Shown piece after piece: positions 2,309-16,536 of a DNA stretch of 33,063 nt; position 1 is the first letter of the stretch; every line of letters begins with the position of its first letter. The notes beneath the pieces are model-generated. The model did not search any database, had not been told where the DNA came from, and was given only the letters and a program-made list of their open reading frames with translations. Both the position numbers and the translations under genes were made by a program. This DNA is from Bacillota bacterium. Its GTDB lineage: Bacteria > Bacillota > Clostridia > Peptostreptococcales > Anaerovoracaceae. The DNA is taken from positions 1 through 33,063 of the forward strand of contig JAFSHN010000064.1 of NCBI GenBank assembly GCA_017440275.1. Reading direction: 5' to 3'.

Positions 2309-3337
2309 TTATAGCATTTCCGTAATGTCGTAAATCAGTCTTTCTGATTTTTCCCAGCCAAGGCAAGGGTCTGTAATAGATTTGCCGTAAACGCAGCCAC
2401 CTATAGGCTGGTTACCATCTTCAATATAACTTTCAATCATCAGACCTTTTACCAACTGACCTATGTCTTCGCTGAATCGTCTGGAATGCATAACCTCTTT
2501 TGCAATTCTAACCTGTTCAAGGTATTTCTTGCCTGAGTTGGCATGATTTGTGTCCACAATAATTGCAGGATTAGCAAGACCGCTTTCGTGATACATATCG
2601 CAAACAGTTCTCAGGTCTTCGTAATGATAGTTTGGAAGTGAACGACCACGTTTATTCATATATCCTCTTAGGATCGCATGAGCATAAGGATTACCGGCAC
2701 TGACAACTTCCCAGTTTCTATATATAAACGTATGAGAATTTTGTGCCGCTGTGATGGAGTTCATCATTACAGAAAAGTCACCGCTTGTTGGATTCTTCAT
2801 ACCCACTGCAACCTCAAGACCGCTGGCTGTCAAACGATGGAACTGGTTTTCTGCAGATCTGGCACCGACTGCTACATAGGAAAGCACATCGCTGAGGTAT
2901 CTATGGTTTTCAGGGTAGAGCATTTCGTCAGCACAGAAGAATTCAGTTTCCTTTGCTGCCCTGATAAAAGTTTCTCTGATCATAATAATACCTTTGAGCA
3001 TATCTTCTGCCACATTTGGATCCGGCTGATGAAGCATGCCCTTATAACCTGTACCGTTGGTACGAGGCTTGTTAGTGTAAATACGCGGGATAATAAGCAC
3101 TTTTTCCTTAACTTCTTCAGACACTCTCTTAAGTCTGTTAAGATAGTCGAGGACGGCATCTTCGTTGTCCGCAGAACAAGGCCCTATAATCAACAAGAAT
3201 CTATCATCCCTGCCGGCAATAATATCCTTGACTTCTTCCACACATTTTTCACGCATTGCCGTATATTTTTCTCCCAACGGGAACATTTCTTTTATGTCTT
3301 TAGGAATAGGCAGCTTGCGTTTAAACTCCATATTCAT
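2309..3337 (-). CDS. aroF: 3-deoxy-7-phosphoheptulonate (DAHP) synthase, type I
   Basis: Condenses phosphoenolpyruvate and erythrose 4-phosphate to DAHP, the committed step of the shikimate pathway. The 342 residues match the AroF/G/H (type I alpha) family in length and motifs: GPCSADNED near 52, KPRTNGTGYKG near 90 (phosphoenolpyruvate-binding Lys and Arg), GARSAENQFHR near 158 and VDTNHANSGKKY near 262. There is no fused chorismate mutase domain, so feedback control, if any, lies in the barrel. The start follows a GGAGGT site seven bases upstream. It is the last gene of the nine-gene operon, 15 bases after tyrA, although it catalyses the first step. Which aromatic end product inhibits it cannot be told. 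Confidence 0.96.
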   Translation of the reverse strand: MNMEFKRKLPIPKDIKEMFPLGEKYTAMREKCVEEVKDIIAGRDDRFLLIIGPCSADNEDAVLDYLNRLKRVSEEVKEKVLIIPRIYTNKPRTNGTGYKGMLHQPDPNVAEDMLKGIIMIRETFIRAAKETEFFCADEMLYPENHRYLSDVLSYVAVGARSAENQFHRLTASGLEVAVGMKNPTSGDFSVMMNSITAAQNSHTFIYRNWEVVSAGNPYAHAILRGYMNKRGRSLPNYHYEDLRTVCDMYHESGLANPAIIVDTNHANSGKKYLEQVRIAKEVMHSRRFSEDIGQLVKGLMIESYIEDGNQPIGGCVYGKSITDPCLGWEKSERLIYDITEML

Positions 3338-3352
3338 AATCTCTACCTCCGT

Positions 3353-4210
3353 CTATTCTTTATCGAATAATTTTCTTCTTGCCGTTGAATGTCTCATCAT
3401 TTCTTTTATACCGTTTTTGTCAGCTTCCATAAGCATTCTTTCCAACTTGGCAAATTCCATGGTGAAAAGCTTCATCTGATGAAGTAGCGCATCCTTGTTA
3501 AGCAAGAACAGTTCACTCCACATAGTTTCATCAATTCGCGCAATTCTTGTTAAATCCCTGAAGGAGTCCCCTGTGTAATCCTGCAAGTCCTCAGTATCAT
3601 TACATGTCATCAAGGTCATTGCAATACAGTGAGTAAGCTGTGAAACAAAACCTATCATCTCATCATGTTCGTAAGGTGAGAGCTGTGAAATACGTGCAAA
3701 GCCAAGAATCTTTCCAACTTGTTTGCAAACATCAATAGCTTCCGGTGTATTTTTTTCAGTCGGAACAACAATATAATTGGCCTGATGGAAAATTTCTTCA
3801 TTGGCATAATATATACCCAGTTTTTCAGAACCGGCCATAGGATGGGCTGCAATATATTCGCAGTCTTCGCGCAAAATATATTGTACATCTTCAACTATAC
3901 ATCCTTTTACACCTGTAACGTCAGTTATAATCGCTCCTGTTTTAAACAGTTTTTGATTTTCTTTAATCCATTCTTTGAAAATATGAGGATAAAGAGCAAA
4001 TATAATCAAATCCGCCTGTCCAATGAGCTTCGCATCAACTTCTGTCGTAGCTTTTGATACAATTTCATTTTTTAAAGCATATTTTATAGTCGCCTCATCC
4101 TTATCGATTGCACTTATATTGTATCCTTGCTTGGAAAAGCCTTTAGCGTAGCTGCCTCCTATTATTCCAAGCCCTATAATCAAAATGTTTGTGTTCTTAT
4201 CAATTGTCAA
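3353..4210 (-). CDS. tyrA: Prephenate dehydrogenase
   Basis: Oxidatively decarboxylates prephenate to 4-hydroxyphenylpyruvate, the tyrosine branch. The 285 residues show an N-terminal Rossmann domain with GLGIIGGS (residues ~13-20), DVTGVKG near 98 and HPMAGSEKLGI near 121, followed by the helical dimerisation domain. The length suits a monofunctional enzyme without a fused ACT or chorismate mutase domain; the mutase activity comes from pheA in the same operon. The chosen start is TTG at 4208-4210, inside the last codons of aroA and eight bases after a GAGGT site. No better ATG exists upstream of the Rossmann motif, so translation is probably coupled to aroA termination. Confidence 0.93.
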   Translation of the reverse strand: MTIDKNTNILIIGLGIIGGSYAKGFSKQGYNISAIDKDEATIKYALKNEIVSKATTEVDAKLIGQADLIIFALYPHIFKEWIKENQKLFKTGAIITDVTGVKGCIVEDVQYILREDCEYIAAHPMAGSEKLGIYYANEEIFHQANYIVVPTEKNTPEAIDVCKQVGKILGFARISQLSPYEHDEMIGFVSQLTHCIAMTLMTCNDTEDLQDYTGDSFRDLTRIARIDETMWSELFLLNKDALLHQMKLFTMEFAKLERMLMEADKNGIKEMMRHSTARRKLFDKE

Positions 4211-5414
4211 TTTCTTCTACCTCTATTCCAAGTGAACTGAGTTTTTGGAAAAAGTCCGGAAAACTCTTTGTTACAGCTTCTGTCCCGTCAATTACGCCGC
4301 CTGTTAAAGTTAAAAGTATAGAACAAGCCATAACAATTCTATGGTCATTGTGTCCGTACAGTTCTTCTGCAGGTGCCGCAAAACCGGTTGGATAAATGAT
4401 TACTTCATTGTCATAAACGCCGGCAGAAACCCCGAATTTCCTCAGTTCAGCTGCCATAACCTCTCCACGGTCACTTTCTTTTATCTTTAGTCTGCTTGTC
4501 CCGGAAAAAACACCGCCGTTTTTGGCCGCCGCTACTGCAAAGAGTACAGGTCCTAAATCAGGACAGTCAGAAATATTGAGAGTTGGTGTTCCAACTTTAA
4601 GATGCTCAAAAAGATTTGTATAAACCTTGTCTCCCTGTATGCTTTCAGGATTCAGATTAGTTACTGTCACATCACCGCCAAGCATATTAAGTGCTTCGAA
4701 GAAAGCTGCATTGGAATAGTCTCCTTCTACATAAACTTCTTCTGCAGTGTACTCCTGATTGCCTTTTATAAAAATCGTATTTTCATCAGTCCAATCGGCC
4801 TTAACTCCAAAAACGGACAGGGCCTGAATGGTCATATCAATATATGAGCGGCTTTCGATAGGCGGAGTTATGGTCAGCTTGCTGTCTCCATCAAGCAGTG
4901 GCAATGCAAAAAGCAGTCCGCTGATAAACTGACTGGACACATTTCCCGCCAATTTGTAGCATCCCGGTTGTAATGGACCTTTAACCATCACACTGGTAGC
5001 ATCCTGTGAGAAAAGAAGGCCTCGTTCCTCACATAAAGTCTTATATATTCCCAGCGGTCTTTCAAGCAGCCTTTCGCTTCCCGAAAGAACTGCATTAGCA
5101 CCGGAAACAAGACATAAAGGAACAAAGAATCTCAAAGTACTTCCGCTTTCGTTGCACTGAAGGATTTTTTTAGGAACTATGTGTGACGGATCTATGCCTT
5201 TAACTGTGATGCTCTCTCCGTTTCTTGTACATACTGCCCCAATAGCTTCAAGGCAGTCAATAGTCGCCAGAACATCTTTTGATTCGGATATACCGTGAAC
5301 AACACAAGTTCCTTTAGAAAGTCCTGCGCAAATCAACATTCTATGGGCCATACTTTTTGATGGAGGTGCCTCCACCCGGCCTTTTGCAATACCTTTTAAT
5401 ATTCTGACTTTCAT
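4200..5414 (-). CDS. aroA: 3-phosphoshikimate 1-carboxyvinyltransferase (EPSP synthase)
   Basis: Transfers the enolpyruvyl group of phosphoenolpyruvate to shikimate 3-phosphate. The 404-residue two-domain protein carries PPSKSMAHR near 17 (substrate-binding Lys, Ser, Arg), NESGSTLRF near 88 and SSQFISG near 157. It also has DCPDLGPVLFAVAA near 282, RLKIKESDRG near 309 and GHNDHRIVMA near 358. At the phosphoenolpyruvate/glyphosate site the segment reads ESGSTLR where E. coli has NAGTAMR: the Gly96 equivalent is kept but neighbours differ, a form I recall from other Clostridia. Its start overlaps the aroQ stop by one base (TAATG) and its end overlaps tyrA by 11 bases, so the three are translationally linked. 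Confidence 0.96.
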   Translation of the reverse strand: MKVRILKGIAKGRVEAPPSKSMAHRMLICAGLSKGTCVVHGISESKDVLATIDCLEAIGAVCTRNGESITVKGIDPSHIVPKKILQCNESGSTLRFFVPLCLVSGANAVLSGSERLLERPLGIYKTLCEERGLLFSQDATSVMVKGPLQPGCYKLAGNVSSQFISGLLFALPLLDGDSKLTITPPIESRSYIDMTIQALSVFGVKADWTDENTIFIKGNQEYTAEEVYVEGDYSNAAFFEALNMLGGDVTVTNLNPESIQGDKVYTNLFEHLKVGTPTLNISDCPDLGPVLFAVAAAKNGGVFSGTSRLKIKESDRGEVMAAELRKFGVSAGVYDNEVIIYPTGFAAPAEELYGHNDHRIVMACSILLTLTGGVIDGTEAVTKSFPDFFQKLSSLGIEVEEIDN

Positions 5415-5854
5415 TATTTTTCTCCCGAATTATCTATGAGATAGTCGATGGCCTCCAGATAACCATCCGTTCCATGTCCCATTACAGTAAAGCAGCAAGC
5501 ACTTCTGATATAACTCACTTGCCGAAAATCTTCTCTTTTGGATACATCGGATATGTGAACTTCTGCCGTAGGGATATTGACACTTTTCACCGCATCTAAA
5601 ATGGCTATACTTGTATGTGTATAGGCGCCCGGGTTGACAACAATGCCGTCTGTCTTATCCCAATATGCCTGCTGAATTCTATCCACCAAATCACCTTCGT
5701 GGTTTGATTGATAAAAATCAGCAGTTACCTCCTTTTTATCACAATGAGCCTTTATCTTTTTCAATAAGTCATCGTAAGTTTCTCTTCCGTATTTGTCCGG
5801 TTCCCTTATTCCGAGCATATTGAGATTAGGCCCGTTAATTATCAACAACTTCAT
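5414..5854 (-). CDS. aroQ: Type II 3-dehydroquinate dehydratase
   Basis: Dehydrates 3-dehydroquinate to 3-dehydroshikimate. The 146-residue length and the motifs INGPNLNMLGIREPDKYG (residues 5-23, with the catalytic Tyr at the end), NPGAYTHTS near 74 and EVHISDVSKRE near 98 are those of the small dodecameric type II enzyme (AroQ), not the type I AroD. Its ATG directly follows the stop of the aroE-aroK fusion (TAAATG), and its stop shares a base with the aroA start. This provides the third step of the pathway in the operon. Confidence 0.96.
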   Translation of the reverse strand: MKLLIINGPNLNMLGIREPDKYGRETYDDLLKKIKAHCDKKEVTADFYQSNHEGDLVDRIQQAYWDKTDGIVVNPGAYTHTSIAILDAVKSVNIPTAEVHISDVSKREDFRQVSYIRSACCFTVMGHGTDGYLEAIDYLIDNSGEK

Positions 5855-7090
5855 TTAAAGCTCCTTAATAATTTCCTCAGCCGCACCTTGAGCGGTATGC
5901 TGATGAGTTACTATGTAATCACAAGTAGAAGTATAAATCGGATATCGTTCTTCATATCTCTTCATTATCTGCTCTACTGTAGATGCTGTTGGGCGGTTTT
6001 TAGTCGGAATCAGTTTTTCAGGATCTCTGTCTCTGAAAAATATTTTTCCGTTAAGCTTAAGAGCCCTCACATTCTCAGGACGAAGTACAGCTCCGCCGCC
6101 TGTTGCGATTACCACACCGTTTCTCATAGAGACTTCTTTAATTACTTCAGTCTCCAAATTTCTGAAATATTCTTCACCATACTTTTCAAATATTTCGGAA
6201 ATCTTCATCTCAGTTTTTCTTTCTATCAAAACGTCTGTATCATAAAAAGGTCTTTTTAAAGTTTTGCCCAGAATTTTTCCTACTGTAGTCTTGCCGCTGG
6301 CCGGCATTCCGGTAAGAACAATATTTTGCTTTTTTGAATATAAATCCGCAAAAACGTTATCCGTCACATGAGCACAATACTTTGTATTGAGGAAAAATTC
6401 CGACGCGCGTACCGCTTGCTCTATGAGCATATAAAGGCCGCCTTCTGCTTTAATACCAAGGGACAAAGCCTCTGATACCAATTGAGTACGAATAGGATTG
6501 TAAACCACATCTATTACACCTTCCAGTTTATCAAAGCCATCCAACTCAATAGGACTTTCATATTGTTTCGGATACATTCCGCAAGGTGTCGTATTGATGA
6601 TGACCTGCGCATCCCTGTGAAGGGCCTTAGCTTCTTCGTAAGGGACAGTTCCTGCTTTTTTTCCTCTGCTGACTTTTGTCACAGACTGCACACCCAGCGC
6701 CTTGCAAACAGCAATAGCTGTATCAGAAGTACCTCCTGTACCGAGAATTAAAACTTTCTTTCCCGCAAGTTCAAGTCCCATATAATTTATGAGACCTTTC
6801 ATTCCGTCAAAGTCAGTATTGTGACCTATCAGGCGCCCCTCTTCATTTCTTATACAGTTAACTGCACCGATTGTCCTGGCAGCCTCTGTCATCTCGTCAA
6901 GATAAGGGATAACTGTCTGCTTATAAGGAATGGTAACGTTGACAGCCTTGAAGTTTTTTTCCTTCAGAAAACAATCAAGTTCTTCAGGCGTCATTTCTAT
7001 AAGCTCATATTCATAATCAGCTATTTGTTCGTGAATATCTTTAGAAAAACTATGGGAAAGTTTAGCTCCCAAAAGTCCGTATTCTGCCAT
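5855..7090 (-). CDS. aroE: Fused shikimate dehydrogenase-shikimate kinase (AroE-AroK)
   Basis: One 411-residue chain carries two successive enzymes. Residues 1-250 are shikimate dehydrogenase: SHSFSK at 12-17 (shikimate binding), the catalytic Lys57 in NVTIPYKQ, NTDFDG at 91-96, the NADP-binding GTGGTSDTA at 117-125 and NTTPCGMYP at 166-174. Residues ~254-411 are shikimate kinase: P-loop GMPASGKT at 261-268, the D-x-D of YDTDVLIE near 284, YFRNLE near 309, GGG at 331-333 and the lid Arg in NRP near 366. The chain would turn 3-dehydroshikimate into shikimate 3-phosphate. The reading frame is continuous, with no stop or start at the junction (~250-255), so this is a true fusion. aroC ends 10 bases upstream. 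Either half could also be symbolised aroK. Confidence 0.96.
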   Translation of the reverse strand: MAEYGLLGAKLSHSFSKDIHEQIADYEYELIEMTPEELDCFLKEKNFKAVNVTIPYKQTVIPYLDEMTEAARTIGAVNCIRNEEGRLIGHNTDFDGMKGLINYMGLELAGKKVLILGTGGTSDTAIAVCKALGVQSVTKVSRGKKAGTVPYEEAKALHRDAQVIINTTPCGMYPKQYESPIELDGFDKLEGVIDVVYNPIRTQLVSEALSLGIKAEGGLYMLIEQAVRASEFFLNTKYCAHVTDNVFADLYSKKQNIVLTGMPASGKTTVGKILGKTLKRPFYDTDVLIERKTEMKISEIFEKYGEEYFRNLETEVIKEVSMRNGVVIATGGGAVLRPENVRALKLNGKIFFRDRDPEKLIPTKNRPTASTVEQIMKRYEERYPIYTSTCDYIVTHQHTAQGAAEEIIKEL

Positions 7091-7100
7091 TTTTATTCTC

Positions 7101-8183
7101 CTAAAAAACTGTACCGAAACGAGCAGTCAAAAGATCTGCCAGAACCAAGGCAGTTACCGCATCAACAACGACTCTCGCTCTATGGATAATTGCAGGATCG
7201 TGTCTTCCCTGCAGCTTGAGAATTGTATCTTCCTGATTCTTAAAGTCCACGGTTTCCTGGGCTTTAAAAATAGATGGCGTCGGCTTAATTACCGTTCTGA
7301 ACTGAATCGGCATCCCGTTGGTTATTCCTCCGTTTATCCCACCGTTGTTGTTTGTTTTTGTAACTATTTTCTTACCCTCATATCTGAATGGGTCATTTGC
7401 CTGTGAGCCTCTCATATTGGCAAATTCAAAGCCTGCGCCAAATTCAATACCTTTTACGGCAGGAATTGAAAAAATTCCATGGCTGAGCATACTTTCTACG
7501 GTGTCAAACCACGGTTCACCAACTCCTGCAGGAAATCCAATAACAGACGTTTCGAGGACGCCTCCTACGCTGTCCCCTTCTGCTGCAACAGCTTCGATGG
7601 CTCCCATCATCTTTGAAGCAGCTTCATCATCCATAACAGGAAAGGTCTTATGGCCAAGCATTTTAATATCTTCTTCCAAATCATTAAAATCTCTGTCGTT
7701 TATACCACAGCAGTTCTTTATATGAGTTCCGATATATATGCCCTTTTCTTCCATCGCCTTCATTACAATGGCTCCTGCAGCTACAAGTGCCGCTGTAATT
7801 CTGCCGGAAAAATGTCCTCCGCCTCTATAATCCTCATATCCCTTATATTTGTAGAAAGCAGTCAAATCTGCATGAGACGGACGCGCAATATGGCTCATTT
7901 CATCATAGTGACAGCTCTTAGTGTTTTCATTTTTAATAATCAGACACAAAGGACTGCCTGTTGTATATCCGTTAAAAACACCGCTGATAAATTCAACCTT
8001 GTCAGATTCTTTTCTCGGTGTAGAAATCTTACCGTAAGGTTTGCGCAAATTCATCTTTGCTTCTATATATTCTTCATCAATTTTAATACCCGGCGCGATT
8101 CCGTCGATGACAGCACCTATGGCCGGCCCATGGCTCTCACCGAAAAGTGTAACAGTTAAGGCCATTCCGAACGTATTCTTCAT
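7101..8183 (-). CDS. aroC: Chorismate synthase
   Basis: Converts EPSP to chorismate using reduced FMN, the last common step of the pathway. The 360 residues are standard for the family. Recognisable signatures are FGESHG at 14-19 (catalytic His), the Arg-rich NLRKPYGKISTPRKESD near 45, RPSHADLTA near 101 and YRGGGHFSGR near 119. NNNGGINGGITNGMPI lies near 278 and the catalytic Asp segment HDPAIIHRARVV near 330. The ATG lies one base after the aroB stop, so the two are coupled. No flavin reductase gene accompanies it in the window. Confidence 0.97.
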   Translation of the reverse strand: MKNTFGMALTVTLFGESHGPAIGAVIDGIAPGIKIDEEYIEAKMNLRKPYGKISTPRKESDKVEFISGVFNGYTTGSPLCLIIKNENTKSCHYDEMSHIARPSHADLTAFYKYKGYEDYRGGGHFSGRITAALVAAGAIVMKAMEEKGIYIGTHIKNCCGINDRDFNDLEEDIKMLGHKTFPVMDDEAASKMMGAIEAVAAEGDSVGGVLETSVIGFPAGVGEPWFDTVESMLSHGIFSIPAVKGIEFGAGFEFANMRGSQANDPFRYEGKKIVTKTNNNGGINGGITNGMPIQFRTVIKPTPSIFKAQETVDFKNQEDTILKLQGRHDPAIIHRARVVVDAVTALVLADLLTARFGTVF

Positions 8184-9182
8184 TTAGAATACCTCCTTAT
8201 AAGACTCTATTAAATCTTCTTTGTTCATCTGTTTGAATTCAAAGGTTCCGATTTCATTAACAACGACTGCAGTCACAATTCCGGCTGAAGCTTTTTTGTC
8301 GTGCATAGCAGCCTCTGCAACGGCCTGTGCATCAGCAAAACATTTGCATGTGAGATTTTCCTTTCTCAGTACAGCAATCAGCCTATCTCGCAAGGCCTGA
8401 TTACACATTGGAATCATGCCCAATGCAACACATTCACCGTGAAAGAAATCGGTTACACTTTCAATTCCATGGCCAAGGGTGTGCCCAAAATTCAAAACTT
8501 TGCGAAGTCCCGTTTCTTTTTCGTCTTCAGTAACAACTCCCAGTTTTATTCTTACCGCTTTTTCAATGGCATCATCTAAAATGCTTCTGATACCCTTTTC
8601 CTCTATTAGTTCAAACAATCCCTTGTCAAAAGTCATCGCAATTTTAATGATTTCAGCAGCACCGCAGGAAAACTGTCTTTCGTCTAAAGTCTCAAGAACT
8701 TCAGGGTCAATCAGTACCGCTTTAGGCTGATGGAAAGCACCCACTATATTTTTGATACCCTTAAGGTCAACAGCTGTTTTGCCTCCCACTGACGAGTCAA
8801 CTTGAGCCAGCAATGTAGTTGGCACATTATAAAAGTCTATACCGCGCATAAAACACGCCGCAGCAAATCCTGCCAAATCTCCCACTACGCCGCCGCCTAC
8901 TGCAACAACGCAGTCTTTTCTGGAAAGACCGAAGTCCAGCATTTTGGAACAAAGTGTTTCAAAAGTACCAAGACTCTTGGATTCTTCTCCTGCTTCAATA
9001 GCATAAATACAAGCTTCTTTGCTGGCTGCTTTTACCATATCCGCATATTCAAAAGGGACCCCCGTATCTGTTACGATGAACACGCGTCTGTCCAAATCAA
9101 ATATTTCGCCGACTTTAGCAAGGGAACCTCTTTCTAATATTATATTGTAACTATCTTGTCCTAAGGACACAGGTATAATCAT
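8184..9182 (-). CDS. aroB: 3-dehydroquinate synthase
   Basis: Cyclises DAHP to 3-dehydroquinate using NAD and a divalent metal. The 332 residues contain the NAD-binding GGGVVGDLAGFAAACFMRG near 97 and PTTLLAQVDSSVGGKTAVD near 120. KNIVGAFHQP is near 144. The metal ligand histidines lie in NFGHTLGHGIE near 231 and FFHGECVALGM near 247. It is slightly shorter than the ~350-360 of E. coli or B. subtilis AroB, but all motifs are present. The gene begins two bases after pheA and ends directly before aroC, in the middle of the operon. Confidence 0.96.
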   Translation of the reverse strand: MIIPVSLGQDSYNIILERGSLAKVGEIFDLDRRVFIVTDTGVPFEYADMVKAASKEACIYAIEAGEESKSLGTFETLCSKMLDFGLSRKDCVVAVGGGVVGDLAGFAAACFMRGIDFYNVPTTLLAQVDSSVGGKTAVDLKGIKNIVGAFHQPKAVLIDPEVLETLDERQFSCGAAEIIKIAMTFDKGLFELIEEKGIRSILDDAIEKAVRIKLGVVTEDEKETGLRKVLNFGHTLGHGIESVTDFFHGECVALGMIPMCNQALRDRLIAVLRKENLTCKCFADAQAVAEAAMHDKKASAGIVTAVVVNEIGTFEFKQMNKEDLIESYKEVF

Positions 9183-9184
9183 AT

Positions 9185-10288
9185 TTAGTCCTCCTGACTA
9201 TGTAAAGTATTGTAGGAGCCTACTACTTTTATCTTATCGCAGCAAGTTTTTAGTTCTTCAAGACACGCTCTGCCTTCTTCACCGTAGATGTCGCCTTCCG
9301 CTTCCACATAGAAATAGTATTGCCACATAAGTTCTTTCATAGGTCTTGAACGAAGAGTTCTCATATTGAAACCATGCTTACCTATAATGGTAAGGGCCTG
9401 GGCCAGAGAACCGGCTTCGTTTCGTGCGGTGAACAAAAGTGAAAAATAAGGGTGCTTGCTTTCTGTGGCACCGCGGTTATCAGCTCTTGAAAACACAGCA
9501 AAACGTGTAGTATTGGACCTATCGTCATTGATACTTCTTGCAATTACATCAAGGCCAAACATTTTAGCAGATTCTGCACTTGCCACGGCCGCAATGCTCT
9601 TGTCCTGTTTTGACTTTACATATTCTGCCGCAAGTGCTGTATTAGAGTATTCAATCTCAGCCAGCTCATTTTCTTTAATGAATCCCCCGCACTGTGACAA
9701 CGCCTGAGGATGGCTTACAACGGTTTTAATATCTTTAGTTGTTGCTCCGGGCAAACCCAGAAGGTCGTGTATTATAGGAAGATCATACATTCCATTGACA
9801 TAGAGATTACCTGCAAACATCAAATCATTTACCTGGTCCACGTCTCCCGCATAACTGTTTTCTACAGGGAGAACAGCACAATCGCATTCACCGCTTTCAA
9901 CAGCATCATATGCCTTTTTAAAGTTGCTGTAGGCGATTTTTTTTGCATCAGGGAAAATTTTAGAAGCAGCGATATGGGCAAAAGCACCTTCTGTTCCACT
10001 GTAAGCAACTTTCAGGCCTTCCAAAATATTTCTTTGATAATCCTTTGAAAGTTCCATTATCTCTTTAAGGAAATTTACGTAATATGATTTTAATTTTGGA
10101 TCCTCAATTCGGTTTGCGCCATTTCTCACCACCTGCTCTTCACGTTCAGGATCGAAGATGGGCAGTCCTTTAGTTTTTTTATACTCGGCAACCTTTGCTA
10201 CTTGTTCCATACGAGCCTTAAAAAGCTCTGCCATCTGATTATCTATGTCAGTTATCTTTTTTCGGATGTCCTTTAAATCTTCCATCAT
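9185..10288 (-). CDS. pheA: Bifunctional chorismate mutase/prephenate dehydratase
   Basis: A P-protein that makes phenylpyruvate from chorismate by way of prephenate. Residues ~1-90 are an AroQ-type chorismate mutase helix bundle (DIRKKITDIDNQMAELFKAR). Residues ~95-270 are prephenate dehydratase with the catalytic TTRF in NDDRSNTTRF. Residues ~280-365 are an ACT regulatory domain, where the usual ESRP phenylalanine-binding motif reads RSRP. The mutase also supplies prephenate for TyrA. I start at the ATG at 10286-10288; a GTG two codons earlier and an ATG one codon later are alternatives. The AGGTGAAG site fits an ATG better than the GTG. It begins a few bases after the aminotransferase stop and ends two bases before aroB. 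Confidence 0.95.
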   Translation of the reverse strand: MMEDLKDIRKKITDIDNQMAELFKARMEQVAKVAEYKKTKGLPIFDPEREEQVVRNGANRIEDPKLKSYYVNFLKEIMELSKDYQRNILEGLKVAYSGTEGAFAHIAASKIFPDAKKIAYSNFKKAYDAVESGECDCAVLPVENSYAGDVDQVNDLMFAGNLYVNGMYDLPIIHDLLGLPGATTKDIKTVVSHPQALSQCGGFIKENELAEIEYSNTALAAEYVKSKQDKSIAAVASAESAKMFGLDVIARSINDDRSNTTRFAVFSRADNRGATESKHPYFSLLFTARNEAGSLAQALTIIGKHGFNMRTLRSRPMKELMWQYYFYVEAEGDIYGEEGRACLEELKTCCDKIKVVGSYNTLHSQED

Positions 10289-10294
10289 CTTCAC

Positions 10295-11482
10295 CTATAA
10301 ATTATAACTTTTTGCCATAGCTCTGAATGCAGGTATGGATGCCTCAATCTGAGCTTTGCTCACGCAGTAAGATATTCTCACATATCCCTTCATACCAAAG
10401 CTGTCGCTTGGTACAATAAGCAGTTCATAGTCCTTAGCTCTTTCAGAAAATTCTTCTCCATCGCCACTTGGAGACTTAACGAAGAGATAAAATGCACCGT
10501 CCGGATGCACAGCCTCAAAACCGCATTCTGTGATTGTCTTATATATCAATTCTCTGTTTTCAGCGTACGCGCTTATGTCTGAAGTTAAACCCTGATGTCT
10601 GCCCACAACAAACTGCATCAAGCTTGGTGCACAAACGAATCCAAGGCTTCTGCCTGCACCGCAGATAGTTGCAAAAAGCTTCCTGCGGCTCTTTGCCTTT
10701 GGGGATACCATCACGTATCCTATTCTTTCACCAGGTAACGACAAAGATTTGCTGTAGGAGTAGCAAATGACAGTATCGTCGTAGTAATTTGCAGGAAGTG
10801 CAAATTTGCCTTCATCATATACCAGTTCTCTGTATGGTTCATCAGAAATCAAATAGATTTCTTTATCATATTCTTTTTCCTTAGCTTCAAGATAAGCTGC
10901 CAGCTTCTTTAAAGTTTCTTCAGTCAAAATTGCACCTGTAGGATTGTTAGGTGAATTGATGATAAGGGCCGCTGTCTTTTCATTAAAAGCTTTATCAAGT
11001 TCATCAAAATCAATCTGGAAGTCTTTCATGGAAACAGGCACTTCTACGCAGGAAGCTCCTGAATTCTCTATAAATACTTTATATTCAGGGAAATATGGTG
11101 TGAACACGATAACTTCTTCACCGGCCTGAGCTACAGATCTCAAAGTAATTGTCAGAGAAGCCGCTGCTCCTACTGTCATATAGATATCGCTCATTTCAAC
11201 GCCCAGATTGTATTTTTCGTTCATATAATCTGCAATGGCCTGTCTTGTGTCATTGTCACCCACAGCAGATGTGTAACAATGAAGCTGTGTTGCATCACTG
11301 TCTCTGAGCAAGCTTACCATCGTCTCTGTAATTTCGTCCGGACAAGGGACATTAGGGTTTCCTATACTGAAATCGAAGACCTTGTCAGCACCGATCTCGG
11401 CCTTTCTTTTTTTTCCGTATTCAAATAATTCTCTGATGACGGAACTGTTTTCTCCAAACTGTGTCATTGTCTTGTTTATCAT
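10295..11482 (-). CDS. PLP-dependent class I/II aminotransferase (aromatic/aspartate type)
   Basis: A 395-residue fold-type I aminotransferase. NSPNNPTGA near 173, DEPYRELVYD near 216 and the pyridoxal-phosphate Schiff-base lysine in YSYSKSLSLPGERIGY near 238 are clear; an N-terminal FSIGNPNVPCPDE segment is also typical. As the first gene of the aromatic operon, it most likely transaminates phenylpyruvate and 4-hydroxyphenylpyruvate, but the sequence alone does not exclude aspartate or another amino donor as main substrate. It starts after a GGAGGT site. Its promoter and a TetR-type inverted repeat lie just upstream. Family is certain; specificity is inferred from context. Confidence 0.93.
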   Translation of the reverse strand: MINKTMTQFGENSSVIRELFEYGKKRKAEIGADKVFDFSIGNPNVPCPDEITETMVSLLRDSDATQLHCYTSAVGDNDTRQAIADYMNEKYNLGVEMSDIYMTVGAAASLTITLRSVAQAGEEVIVFTPYFPEYKVFIENSGASCVEVPVSMKDFQIDFDELDKAFNEKTAALIINSPNNPTGAILTEETLKKLAAYLEAKEKEYDKEIYLISDEPYRELVYDEGKFALPANYYDDTVICYSYSKSLSLPGERIGYVMVSPKAKSRRKLFATICGAGRSLGFVCAPSLMQFVVGRHQGLTSDISAYAENRELIYKTITECGFEAVHPDGAFYLFVKSPSGDGEEFSERAKDYELLIVPSDSFGMKGYVRISYCVSKAQIEASIPAFRAMAKSYNL

Positions 11483-11494
11483 AACTTACCTCCG

Positions 11495-11513
11495 AAGTTA
11501 GCAGTGTTAACTA
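11495..11513. promoter_or_regulatory. Putative TetR-family operator at the aro operon
   Basis: AAGTTAG-CAGTG-TTAACTA: two 7-base half-sites with a 5-base centre. The right half is identical to the right half of the perfect site at 11598-11616, and the left half matches it at 5 of 7 positions. It sits between the -10 and the ribosome binding site of the operon's first gene. Similarity, spacing and position support an operator for the divergent TetR protein. Binding is inferred. Confidence 0.68.
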
Positions 11514-11519
11514 ATGCAG

Positions 11520-11549
11520 ATTATATCGCATAAAACGGCTTAAAGTCAA
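11520..11549 (-). promoter_or_regulatory. Promoter of the aromatic amino acid operon
   Basis: On the minus strand, -35 TTGACT (11544-11549), an 18-bp spacer and a perfect -10 TATAAT (11520-11525) lie about 40 bases ahead of the first gene. The predicted start, about 7 bases past the -10, abuts the operator at 11495-11513, so a bound regulator should block initiation or early elongation. No other promoter was found within the tightly packed operon. Confidence 0.8.
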
Positions 11550-11567
11550 CCACTTCAGCGAAAAATA

Positions 11568-11596
11568 TTGCATATTCATCTTAAAAACATTATAAT
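11568..11596 (+). promoter_or_regulatory. Promoter of the tetR-family gene
   Basis: Plus-strand -35 TTGCAT (11568-11573), 17-bp spacer, -10 TATAAT (11591-11596). The perfect inverted repeat begins two bases after the -10, across the predicted start point, which suggests autoregulation. Confidence 0.75.
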
Positions 11597-11597
11597 C

Positions 11598-11616
11598 TAG
11601 TTAACAACATTAACTA
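11598..11616. promoter_or_regulatory. Putative TetR-family operator (autoregulatory)
   Basis: A perfect inverted repeat TAGTTAA-CAACA-TTAACTA occupies the space between the -10 and the AAAGGAG ribosome binding site of the TetR-family gene. A weaker copy with the same architecture lies 103 bp away at the aro operon start. It is the expected position for autorepression. Confidence 0.78.
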
Positions 11617-11628
11617 AAGGAGTTTGCT

Positions 11629-12141
11629 ATGGAAGACATTGATAGCAGCGTAATGCTCAAAGAAAAACTATTATCCGCAGGGATAGATGAAATTGCAAGC
11701 TACGGAATCAAAAACTTTTCTCTTCGCCGTGTTGCTTCTGCTTGTGGTGCCAGTTGTGCAGCCCCTTACAAGCATTTTAAAAACAAAGAAGAATTCATAA
11801 ACGAAATAATCATATATGTGGAAGAAAAATGGATGCATCTAAGTAATCAGATAGCGGGTGTTTTCGAAGATCCAAAAGAAAGAATTGCACAATTATGTGT
11901 TGCAAATGTAAGATTTAAGATTGGTAATCCTCTTTACGGTATGGGGAATAAAACCTTTGATACGAATATTTCCGAAGAGATAAAAACACTGTTTCAGAAT
12001 GATGAATCTCTGGCAGAAGAAAAGCTCTTTGCAATTTCTGCCCTCGTTACAGGGACTGCTTGTTTGATTGAGCAAGGCAAATTGGATAACAGTCCGAAAA
12101 CCTTTGATTTTCTTAAGAATAGAATTATAGCAGAACTATAA
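11629..12141 (+). CDS. TetR/AcrR-family transcriptional regulator
   Basis: A 170-residue protein with an N-terminal TetR-type helix-turn-helix at about residues 30-58 (FSLRRVASACGASCAAPYKHFKNKEEF; the YKHFKNKEE end is diagnostic). The C-terminal helical region (60-170) is short for the family and has no recognised ligand-binding subfamily. It is divergent from the aromatic operon. The shared 146-bp region has two matching inverted repeats, one over its own start and one over the operon start, so it probably represses both. The effector is unknown; an aromatic amino acid or pathway intermediate would be logical but is speculation. A good AAAGGAG site fixes the ATG. A strong terminator follows. 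Confidence 0.88.
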   Translation: MEDIDSSVMLKEKLLSAGIDEIASYGIKNFSLRRVASACGASCAAPYKHFKNKEEFINEIIIYVEEKWMHLSNQIAGVFEDPKERIAQLCVANVRFKIGNPLYGMGNKTFDTNISEEIKTLFQNDESLAEEKLFAISALVTGTACLIEQGKLDNSPKTFDFLKNRIIAEL

Positions 12142-15246: not shown

Positions 15247-16536
15247 TTATAACTGTTTTAAAATATTTTCTGTAGCCTTTTCAGCTTCAAAAATTGTTTT
15301 TTCAATATCTATTGTAATAAACTCTCCGTTATCATAGAGAACCTTGCCGTCTACCATTGTAAGCAGTACATCACTTCCGCAAGCTGAGTAAACTAAATTG
15401 TTTTTCAAATCGTGAATTGGATGCATATGAGGAACATTGAGATTTACAACGATTAAGTCAGCTCTTGCTCCTTCTTTGAGGAAGCCGCAGTCACATCTTC
15501 CCTGGCCCATAGCACCGTTAACAGTTGCAGCCTTGAGAGTTTCGGTAGGTGAAACCACCTTTGGATCAAGAAGGTTAACCTTGGAAGCGAGTGCAAAGGC
15601 TTTCATTTCTTCCATGAAGTTCAAACTGTTGTTACTTGCTGTACTGTCTGTACCGATTGCGACATTGATTCCTCTCCTTAATAATTCAGGCACATTACAG
15701 ATACCGCTGGCCAGTTTCATATTGCTGATTGGATTAGTCGCAACTGTTACACCTTTTTCTTTAAGAATATCGTAATCTTCTCCTTCAACGTATACACAGT
15801 GAGCTGCAGTCGCAGGTACGTCGAACAGTCCAAGGCTATTGAAATACTGTGTTGGAGTCATGCCGTTGTGACGTCCTTTACATTCTTCATGCTCGTTCTT
15901 TGTTTCTGAAACGTGTACATGCATACGTGCATTGTTTTCCTTTGCATAATCAGCCACTGCTTTTACTGCAATTGGATTCGAAGTATATTCAGCATGGATG
16001 CTCATATCCATTTTTATTCTTTCATCACAGATATTATGATACTGTTCAAAACTGCGCTTCATTTCGTGCATAGATGGGAGTTCCCATACATCGCTGTCAC
16101 TGAAATGAACGATGGATCTTGAAATGTTTCCTTTGATACCACTGTCGACTGTAGCCTGAACCATTTCATCCATGAAGTAATACATATCACTGGAAGAAAC
16201 GATACCGAATCGCAATGATTCAGCATAAGAAAGAAGCGTTCCCCAATATACAGCATTACCATCCAGTTTATCTTCAAATGGGAAAATTCTTGTGTTCAGC
16301 CAGTCAGACAGAGCCAGATTTTCACCATAACCTCTCATCAAAGCCATTGGAGAATGAGCATGAGAGTTATAGAATCCCGGCATCAGAAGCTTACCCTTGC
16401 CGTCATATTCTCTGTCAAACTCTCCGGCAGGTCTTTCCTTTCCCACGTATTTAATATGTGTTCCTTCTGTAACCACATACATATCTTTCTTTATTTCAAA
16501 GTTTTCATCAAGAATTGTAATGTTTTTAAAAAGCAT
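15247..16536 (-). CDS. mtaD: Amidohydrolase, MTA/SAH deaminase family
   Basis: A 429-residue metal-dependent hydrolase of the S-adenosylhomocysteine/5'-methylthioadenosine deaminase group. Metal and active-site motifs are visible in order: GFYNSHAHSPMALMRG near 53 (HxH), MHVHVSETKNEHEE near 205, AAHCVYV near 241 and IGTDSTASNNSLNFMEEM near 291 (metal Asp). The family deaminates SAH, MTA or adenosine for salvage, but related amidohydrolases act on guanine or s-triazines, so the exact substrate is uncertain. It lies 33 bases after the VanX-like gene on the same strand; a -10-like TATACT occurs in the gap. The flippase gene follows 14 bases later. Confidence 0.88.
   Translation of the reverse strand: MLFKNITILDENFEIKKDMYVVTEGTHIKYVGKERPAGEFDREYDGKGKLLMPGFYNSHAHSPMALMRGYGENLALSDWLNTRIFPFEDKLDGNAVYWGTLLSYAESLRFGIVSSSDMYYFMDEMVQATVDSGIKGNISRSIVHFSDSDVWELPSMHEMKRSFEQYHNICDERIKMDMSIHAEYTSNPIAVKAVADYAKENNARMHVHVSETKNEHEECKGRHNGMTPTQYFNSLGLFDVPATAAHCVYVEGEDYDILKEKGVTVATNPISNMKLASGICNVPELLRRGINVAIGTDSTASNNSLNFMEEMKAFALASKVNLLDPKVVSPTETLKAATVNGAMGQGRCDCGFLKEGARADLIVVNLNVPHMHPIHDLKNNLVYSACGSDVLLTMVDGKVLYDNGEFITIDIEKTIFEAEKATENILKQL

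Follow-up and report, generated by a model that had tools for sequence, protein, structure and literature searches.

A predicted TetR-type repressor of an aromatic amino acid operon and its putative paired operators in a clostridial genus

Analysis of a 33,063-nucleotide stretch of bacterial DNA (the window) and of related genomes suggests that the tetR gene divergent from a nine-gene aromatic amino acid (aro) operon very likely encodes a dedicated TetR-type repressor of this operon, which would act through paired operators and for which phenylalanine or tyrosine would be the likeliest signal. The original prediction, a TetR with operators on its own gene and on the aro operon and a motif conserved at related tetR-aro pairs, is borne out by two exact paired sites in the window and by an aro-side site at 20 of 20 such pairs; the tetR-side site proved to be lineage-specific. 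No description of TetR control of an aro operon was found in the open-licence literature text that was searched. In the available part of PMC12566513, the TetR family is named only for TtgR.

The regulator gene, the aro operon and the two sites between them

Pfam and NCBIfam profile matches agreed with the earlier assignment of nine open reading frames to the aro operon. The genes, predicted promoters and putative operators of the window are listed below in the order in which they lie, from tetR to the last aro gene.

11629..12141, plus strand: tetR, TetR/AcrR-type regulator of 170 aa with the recognition stretch SCAAPYKHF (PF00440 TetR_N, E 1.3e-8)
11599..11615, either strand: O_tetR, putative operator between the tetR -10 and ribosome-binding site, AGTTAACAACATTAACT, exact AGTTA-N7-TAACT
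11568..11596, plus strand: predicted tetR promoter, TTGCAT-17-TATAAT, read from the sequence and absent from the promoter scan output
11520..11549, minus strand: strong predicted aro operon promoter, TTGACT-18-TATAAT, 11/12 consensus matches (promoter scan)
11496..11512, either strand: O_aro, putative operator over the predicted aro transcript start, minus-strand reading AGTTAACACTGCTAACT, exact AGTTA-N7-TAACT
10295..11482, minus strand: aro gene 1, class I/II aminotransferase (PF00155; NF005305 above cut-off)
9185..10294, minus strand: aro gene 2, chorismate mutase-prephenate dehydratase, CM-PDT (PF01817 and PF00800)
8184..9182, minus strand: aro gene 3, aroB, 3-dehydroquinate synthase (TIGR01357 above cut-off)
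7101..8183, minus strand: aro gene 4, aroC, chorismate synthase (TIGR00033 above cut-off)
5855..7090, minus strand: aro gene 5, fused aroE-aroK, shikimate dehydrogenase-shikimate kinase (PF08501 and PF01202)
5414..5854, minus strand: aro gene 6, type II 3-dehydroquinate dehydratase, aroQ (TIGR01088 above cut-off)
4200..5414, minus strand: aro gene 7, aroA, EPSP synthase (TIGR01356 above cut-off)
3353..4210, minus strand: aro gene 8, tyrA, prephenate dehydrogenase (E down to 1.5e-50 with prephenate dehydrogenase models, below their cut-offs)
2309..3337, minus strand: aro gene 9, aroF/G/H-type DAHP synthase (TIGR00034 above cut-off)

The PF00440 match of the tetR product scored 34.9 bits against a cut-off of 24 and was its sole Pfam match, the C-terminal half giving none. 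TyrR, TrpR and ArgR-type regulators control aromatic genes, and an 'ARO box' is known from Streptococcus/Lactococcus. The pathway controlled here would be the same, but the window regulator showed no Pfam match to the TyrR/TrpR/ArgR-type families. A search of solved structures returned generic TetR relatives only, the best PDB matches lying chiefly over the N-terminal half, and the NCBIfam matches, among them a SACE_7040-type regulator and the efflux repressors MtrR and AcrR, were all far below cut-offs. The usual targets of TetR/AcrR repressors are efflux, catabolic or lipid genes. The window regulator resembles the AcrR, MtrR, TtgR and SlmA types in its N-terminal TetR_N domain, its divergent layout and a palindromic operator at the promoter, a likeness seen here in sequence only, and differs from them in that it is predicted to act on an entire operon for amino acid biosynthesis.

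Two inverted repeats are present at the places given in the original prediction. The repeat at 11598-11616 is perfect (TAGTTAA-CAACA-TTAACTA), and the repeat at 11495-11513 is imperfect (AAGTTAG-CAGTG-TTAACTA), with 5 of 7 arm pairs matching. Both can be read in the window as 7-base arms around a 5-base centre; this description is incomplete and covers only part of the aro-side site, because across relatives that site is a 17-bp palindrome, roughly RGTTAACA-N-TGTTAACY. Exact copies of the 17-bp core AGTTA-N7-TAACT stand at 11496-11512 and 11599-11615, and the 33-kb window contains no others; dinucleotide shuffles of the window (n=300) contained a mean of 0.037 copies. Shuffling the 146-bp region between the genes (n=20,000) gave at least one copy in 16 shuffles and two copies in none. 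As a generic control, 15 of 3000 shuffles held some 5-bp-arm inverted repeat twice with the same arm and spacing. With up to 2 mismatches allowed, the core was not enriched in the window (14 matches against 21.8 expected), so the signal consists of the two exact copies. O_aro starts 7 nt past the aro -10 and O_tetR starts 2 nt past the tetR TATAAT (11591-11596). The window's own genome (1.46 Mb, 75% complete) has the exact core at one place beyond this pair; that match (C24:370) falls within an ORF (251-829 of L137) and was not considered further.

A THF riboswitch (RF01831, 78.9 bits) at 1565-1655 is the sole Rfam match in the window and precedes an ECF transporter S-component gene (1738-2271). 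A THF riboswitch likewise occurs in genus genome G001 (L176:14033-14124).

Conservation of the tetR-aro pair and of its operator

A homologue search yielded 70 loci encoding some relative, and in ten of them (L031-L040) tetR is divergent from an aro operon. The same arrangement was found in the genus genomes G001, G002, G003 and G004 (the last being locus L031), and six genomes (G249, G496, G416, G432, G495 and G472) were added through genome searches, their aro genes being confirmed with tblastn. In a 48-row tree 20 TetRs form one clade, with support of 93/89, under the tool's star threshold, and recovery in 92% of bootstrap trees; all 20 are divergent from an aro operon, and their nearest relatives in the tree are TetRs from other contexts. 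The tree omits L125 (= L049), L052 and L214 (no motif found). At E <= 1e-6, a single TetR matched the alignment in each of the genomes G320-G329. The operons themselves vary. That of G249 has no aroE-aroK match in place, in that of G496 AroB is joined to chorismate mutase and a prephenate dehydratase was not seen in the part read, and those of L035, L036 and L263 are truncated where the contig or locus ends. The gene order MazG-HU-tetR-aro was found in the window, G001, G002 and G004, or four of the six TetR loci checked in the window's group; in G003 and G249 neither MazG nor HU was matched in the part that was read.

Comparison of AroB across the family gave a match in 31 of 35 genomes (G006-G027 and others), which in 22 of them was only about 35-44% identical to the window's AroB over the matched part. 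Identity of at least 53% was seen in G000-G005, G249, G074 and G008. By this sequence comparison the window-type aro operon may be a separate, perhaps acquired, lineage.

Operator sites were counted in the 300 bp upstream of the first aro gene at 19 loci; the twentieth, G472, was viewed separately and carries TGTTAACACTGTTAACT at the equivalent place. The aro site had at most one mismatch to RGTTAWCANTGWTAACY at 18 of the 19 loci and 3 mismatches at L219, counts that come from a consensus drawn from the very loci scored on it and that are not independent because many of the loci are close relatives. The L219 site is itself a palindrome with 7-bp arms. Positions T3, T4, A5, C7, G11, T13, A14 and A15 were invariant across the 19 loci. 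At every one of them the site is 4-16 nt downstream of the best -10, which is the position expected of a repressor. A second site nearer tetR was found at up to 3 mismatches in nine loci (five genus loci, G249, G496, G432 and G495) and was absent at this threshold from the other ten, including all nine of L032-L040; at L219, TGATAACGGTGTTAACA was noticed by eye at the tetR start. The aro site is thus the constant part of the system, and the predicted autoregulation varies and is not universal, since even at this loose threshold a tetR-side operator occurs at only nine of 19 loci.

In genome-wide scans, the pattern RGTTADCANTGTTAACY at 0 mismatches was present once per genome, at aro, in all five genus genomes with tetR (G000-G004), and had no match in G005, the genus genome without tetR. 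A reversed control pattern at up to one mismatch occurred 0 times in G000-G004 and 3 times in G005. Among G320-G328, the aro site was found at up to one mismatch in nine of nine genomes and was the only such site of the genome in six. G329 (L041), which is not an aro member, had no site at this threshold.

A few sites were observed away from aro. In G325, G327 and G328 (L189, L186 and L191) a second site is present between ychF and a response-regulator gene, and in G326 (L230) it is present with 2 mismatches; in this group it falls between two predicted promoters, over neither core. A full-length ychF match was found in 19 of the 21 genomes checked (not in G003 or G005). Apart from this group, 15 genomes had such a match, and scanning 500 bp ahead of their ychF at up to 3 mismatches returned nothing, which also serves as a rough background for the site counts. 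Four other sites at up to one mismatch were found in the genus (G004:C43, G003:C87, G005:C65 and G005:C111). The G003:C87 site (L110:1501-1517), with one mismatch, overlaps the end of a promoter (TTGACA...TATAAT) that precedes a membrane-protein-like ORF, and is a possible extra target in that species.

Sister regulators and aro operons without tetR

Fourteen sister rows of the alignment were compared with the 20 aro rows. The sister recognition stretch is SCAAPYKHF or near to it, and HTH residues are largely common to both groups. A near-identical operator was found at five of the 14 sisters, namely L129 (GGTTATCACTGTTAACT), L130, L131, L225 and L227. At L225 and L227 it reads AGTAAACA(A/T)TGTTAACT and follows a TTGACA...TATAGT-like promoter, inside the first codons of a mechanically called ORF. 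L041 carries the variant GTTAACACATGTTAAC before degV, and the other eight sisters had no site in the stretch read. The sisters L129, L130 and L131 are divergent from acyl carrier protein and NMO-type (enoyl-reductase-like) genes, with fabD and accB/C/D farther along in L129, and L225, L227 and L008 are beside AMP-binding (acyl-CoA-ligase-like) genes, the one in L225 coming before tetR and bioY after it. Taken by their neighbours and sites, L129, L130, L131, L225, L227 and L041 represent a candidate lipid regulon.

Sisters and aro-TetRs are alike in the recognition helix and, at the loci named, in the operator; they differ in their neighbours and in a diverged ligand half, and the sisters fall outside the aro clade. 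The aro group is marked by Leu71 (19/20), Cys90 (18/20) and Ala92 (19/20), where sister rows have Arg (9/14), Ser (11/14) and Glu (6/14) or Ala (5/14). Exact NPHFRSI was found in eight of the 14 sister rows and in none of the 20 aro rows, a few of which have NPNYRS or NPNFRS, and Cys39 and Cys43 are invariant in all 20 aro and all 14 sister rows. The ligand-binding half of the aro-TetRs showed no conserved motif attributable to an aromatic ligand. The aro rows form their own clade (93/89) and do not group with the lipid-linked sister rows. A TetR group with other members next to fatty-acid synthesis, acyl-CoA-ligase-like, DegV or unrelated genes is the probable origin of the regulator, and we infer from these comparisons that the operator code was kept while the target and the sensor half changed.

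Operons without tetR offer a second comparison. In G005, of the same genus and 90% complete, no tetR orthologue was found (best match 6.9e-4, none at 1e-12), and the start of its aro operon shows no site with 3 or fewer mismatches over 300 bp; the aro operon of G074 is likewise without a site. In a tree of CM-PDT, AroB and AroC, G005 is nested among species with the TetR, grouping with the window and G249 (95/95), and its gene order is MazG-HU-aro. Joint loss of gene and site in G005 would be the simplest reading of these sequences.

The original prediction had seen no T-box or attenuator leader at the window operon, and this was upheld: no Rfam family matched in the intergenic region, and a leader ORF with terminator was found at none of 19 TetR loci, the window included. 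A reading of the operator as an RNA hairpin was rejected, its stability being no better than that of shuffles (z 0.22). Rfam scanning found no T-box in the window, nor at the aro promoter of ten other TetR loci (L176-L178, L136, L032, L033, L034, L037, L038 and L040). A T-box does occur in L033 at 15468-15718, on the contig that carries the tetR-aro pair, about 5 kb away from it and not on aro.

The survey for attenuators covered 197 genomes of the order of G325, 46 of which have the CM-PDT enzyme at E <= 1e-60 (G496 is outside these 46), and 30 loci were read. Five of the 30 have the TetR, with the site at up to 2 mismatches in four and at 3 in L282 (G416). The TetR-less set (n=26) consists of 24 assessable loci together with G074 and G005; L269 was dropped, as its contig ends there. 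A short ORF with at least three consecutive Phe/Tyr residues (e.g. RFYYY, CYYYFYF) was found at 18 of these 26 loci (L261, L266, L268, L270-L280, L283, L286, L287 and L174) compared with 264 of 2600 shuffles, and the remaining eight, G005 included, had no such Phe/Tyr-rich leader ORF. Among TetR-less loci, 11 of 26 had a leader ORF with a downstream terminator, compared with none of the 19 TetR loci (Fisher p 0.001); for a leader-like ORF without the terminator requirement, which discriminates weakly, the counts were 18 of 26 and 6 of 19 (Fisher p 0.017). Both p values treat as independent loci that are not. Rfam gave no match at the 15 leader loci scanned, and the Phe/Tyr-rich leader ORFs are possibly an undescribed attenuator family. 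Since leader and terminator are frequent at TetR-less loci and absent from all 19 TetR loci, the TetR seems to substitute for attenuation on this operon type.

Two known systems bear on this comparison. The motif uORFC-13-1, a Phe-codon upstream ORF at aroF, is proposed in the available part of PMC8632094 to work through leader ORF and terminator, as would the TetR-less loci here. It is an RNA mechanism, which was not found at the TetR loci, and it stands upstream of aroF, whereas the leaders identified here precede the aminotransferase or chorismate mutase-prephenate dehydratase gene. HisR, as presented from comparative genomics in the available part of PMC9413887, represses his genes in Firmicutes, others of which rely on T-boxes or attenuators for this control. 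It is similar in being a DNA-binding repressor in place of these RNA devices on amino acid genes, but it belongs to the TrpR family and has the motif cacTTTAnnnnnnTAAAgtg (PMC9413887), whereas the window regulator matches TetR_N only.

Proposed mechanism, alternative explanations and meaning

From sequence comparison we infer binding, repression and signal as follows. The TetR, presumably as a dimer, would bind the 17-bp palindrome (about RGTTAACANTGTTAACY) over the aro transcription start, and in this genus would also bind a further copy, of lower symmetry, that follows its own -10. Putative binding at these two places would lead to repression of the aro operon and of tetR itself. The likeliest signal would be an end product, phenylalanine or tyrosine, acting as corepressor, and the alternative would be a pathway intermediate acting as inducer. 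Phe or Tyr is the first choice because many TetR-less relatives of the operon have Phe/Tyr-rich leader ORFs at the equivalent place.

The identity of the ligand is the point at which another explanation carries some weight. The TetR could control aro and yet sense a non-aromatic ligand, either a lipid-type one (acyl-CoA or similar), which some sister TetRs may also sense, or a redox signal through Cys39/Cys43, coupling aromatic synthesis to the lipid or redox state. Sister neighbours of the acyl-carrier-protein/NMO type (L129-L131), AMP-binding genes (L225, L227 and L008) and degV (L041) are in its favour, as are the two cysteines invariant in both groups. We consider it unlikely, because the ligand half differs, NPHFRSI being confined to sister rows, and because the leaders on TetR-less operons point to end-product control. 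That the TetR activates rather than represses the operon is very improbable: the extra ychF site in G325-G328, placed between two predicted promoters and not over one, would suit an activator, but the aro site is downstream of the -10 at 19 of 19 loci and most of the promoters look near-consensus.

Two further explanations would deprive the TetR of its role at aro. The repeats could belong to a leader hairpin, attenuator or T-box with the TetR as a bystander; relatives of the operon do carry leader ORFs with terminators, and amino acid genes of Firmicutes often carry T-boxes according to the available part of PMC9413887. Such RNA-level control is hardly to be expected here, given the lack of an Rfam match in the intergenic region, a hairpin z of 0.22, a site that spans the predicted transcription start, a tetR-side copy that is on the other transcript, and the 19 TetR loci without leader and terminator. 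Alternatively, the TetR would act on its own gene only or on some distant target, efflux genes for example, its adjacency to aro being accidental. The SACE_7040-type, MtrR and AcrR matches lean that way, far below cut-offs as they are. With 20 of 20 clade members beside aro and having an aro-promoter site, and with the tetR-side site the less conserved of the two, this explanation is extremely improbable.

Dedicated repression of the aro operon by the TetR is thus the reading that we prefer. A broader reading, which we put forward tentatively and which is somewhat more likely to fail than to hold, is that an aromatic-sensing TetR class replaced Phe/Tyr leader attenuation of one operon type. 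This class would have arisen by rewiring from a TetR with fatty-acid-gene kin, a regulator that retained its operator code, shifted to the aro promoter and took on a different ligand, with a second target (ychF/response regulator) gained in one sub-lineage.

If true, the proposed repression would extend the control schemes for the shikimate-Phe-Tyr pathway of clostridia by a protein-based one. The operon type would then form a natural series, being under an RNA attenuator, under a TetR or, in G005, under neither visible device, and the repressors would be an example of a constant DNA code with a changed pathway. A TetR that senses aromatic compounds would be of use as a biosensor part.
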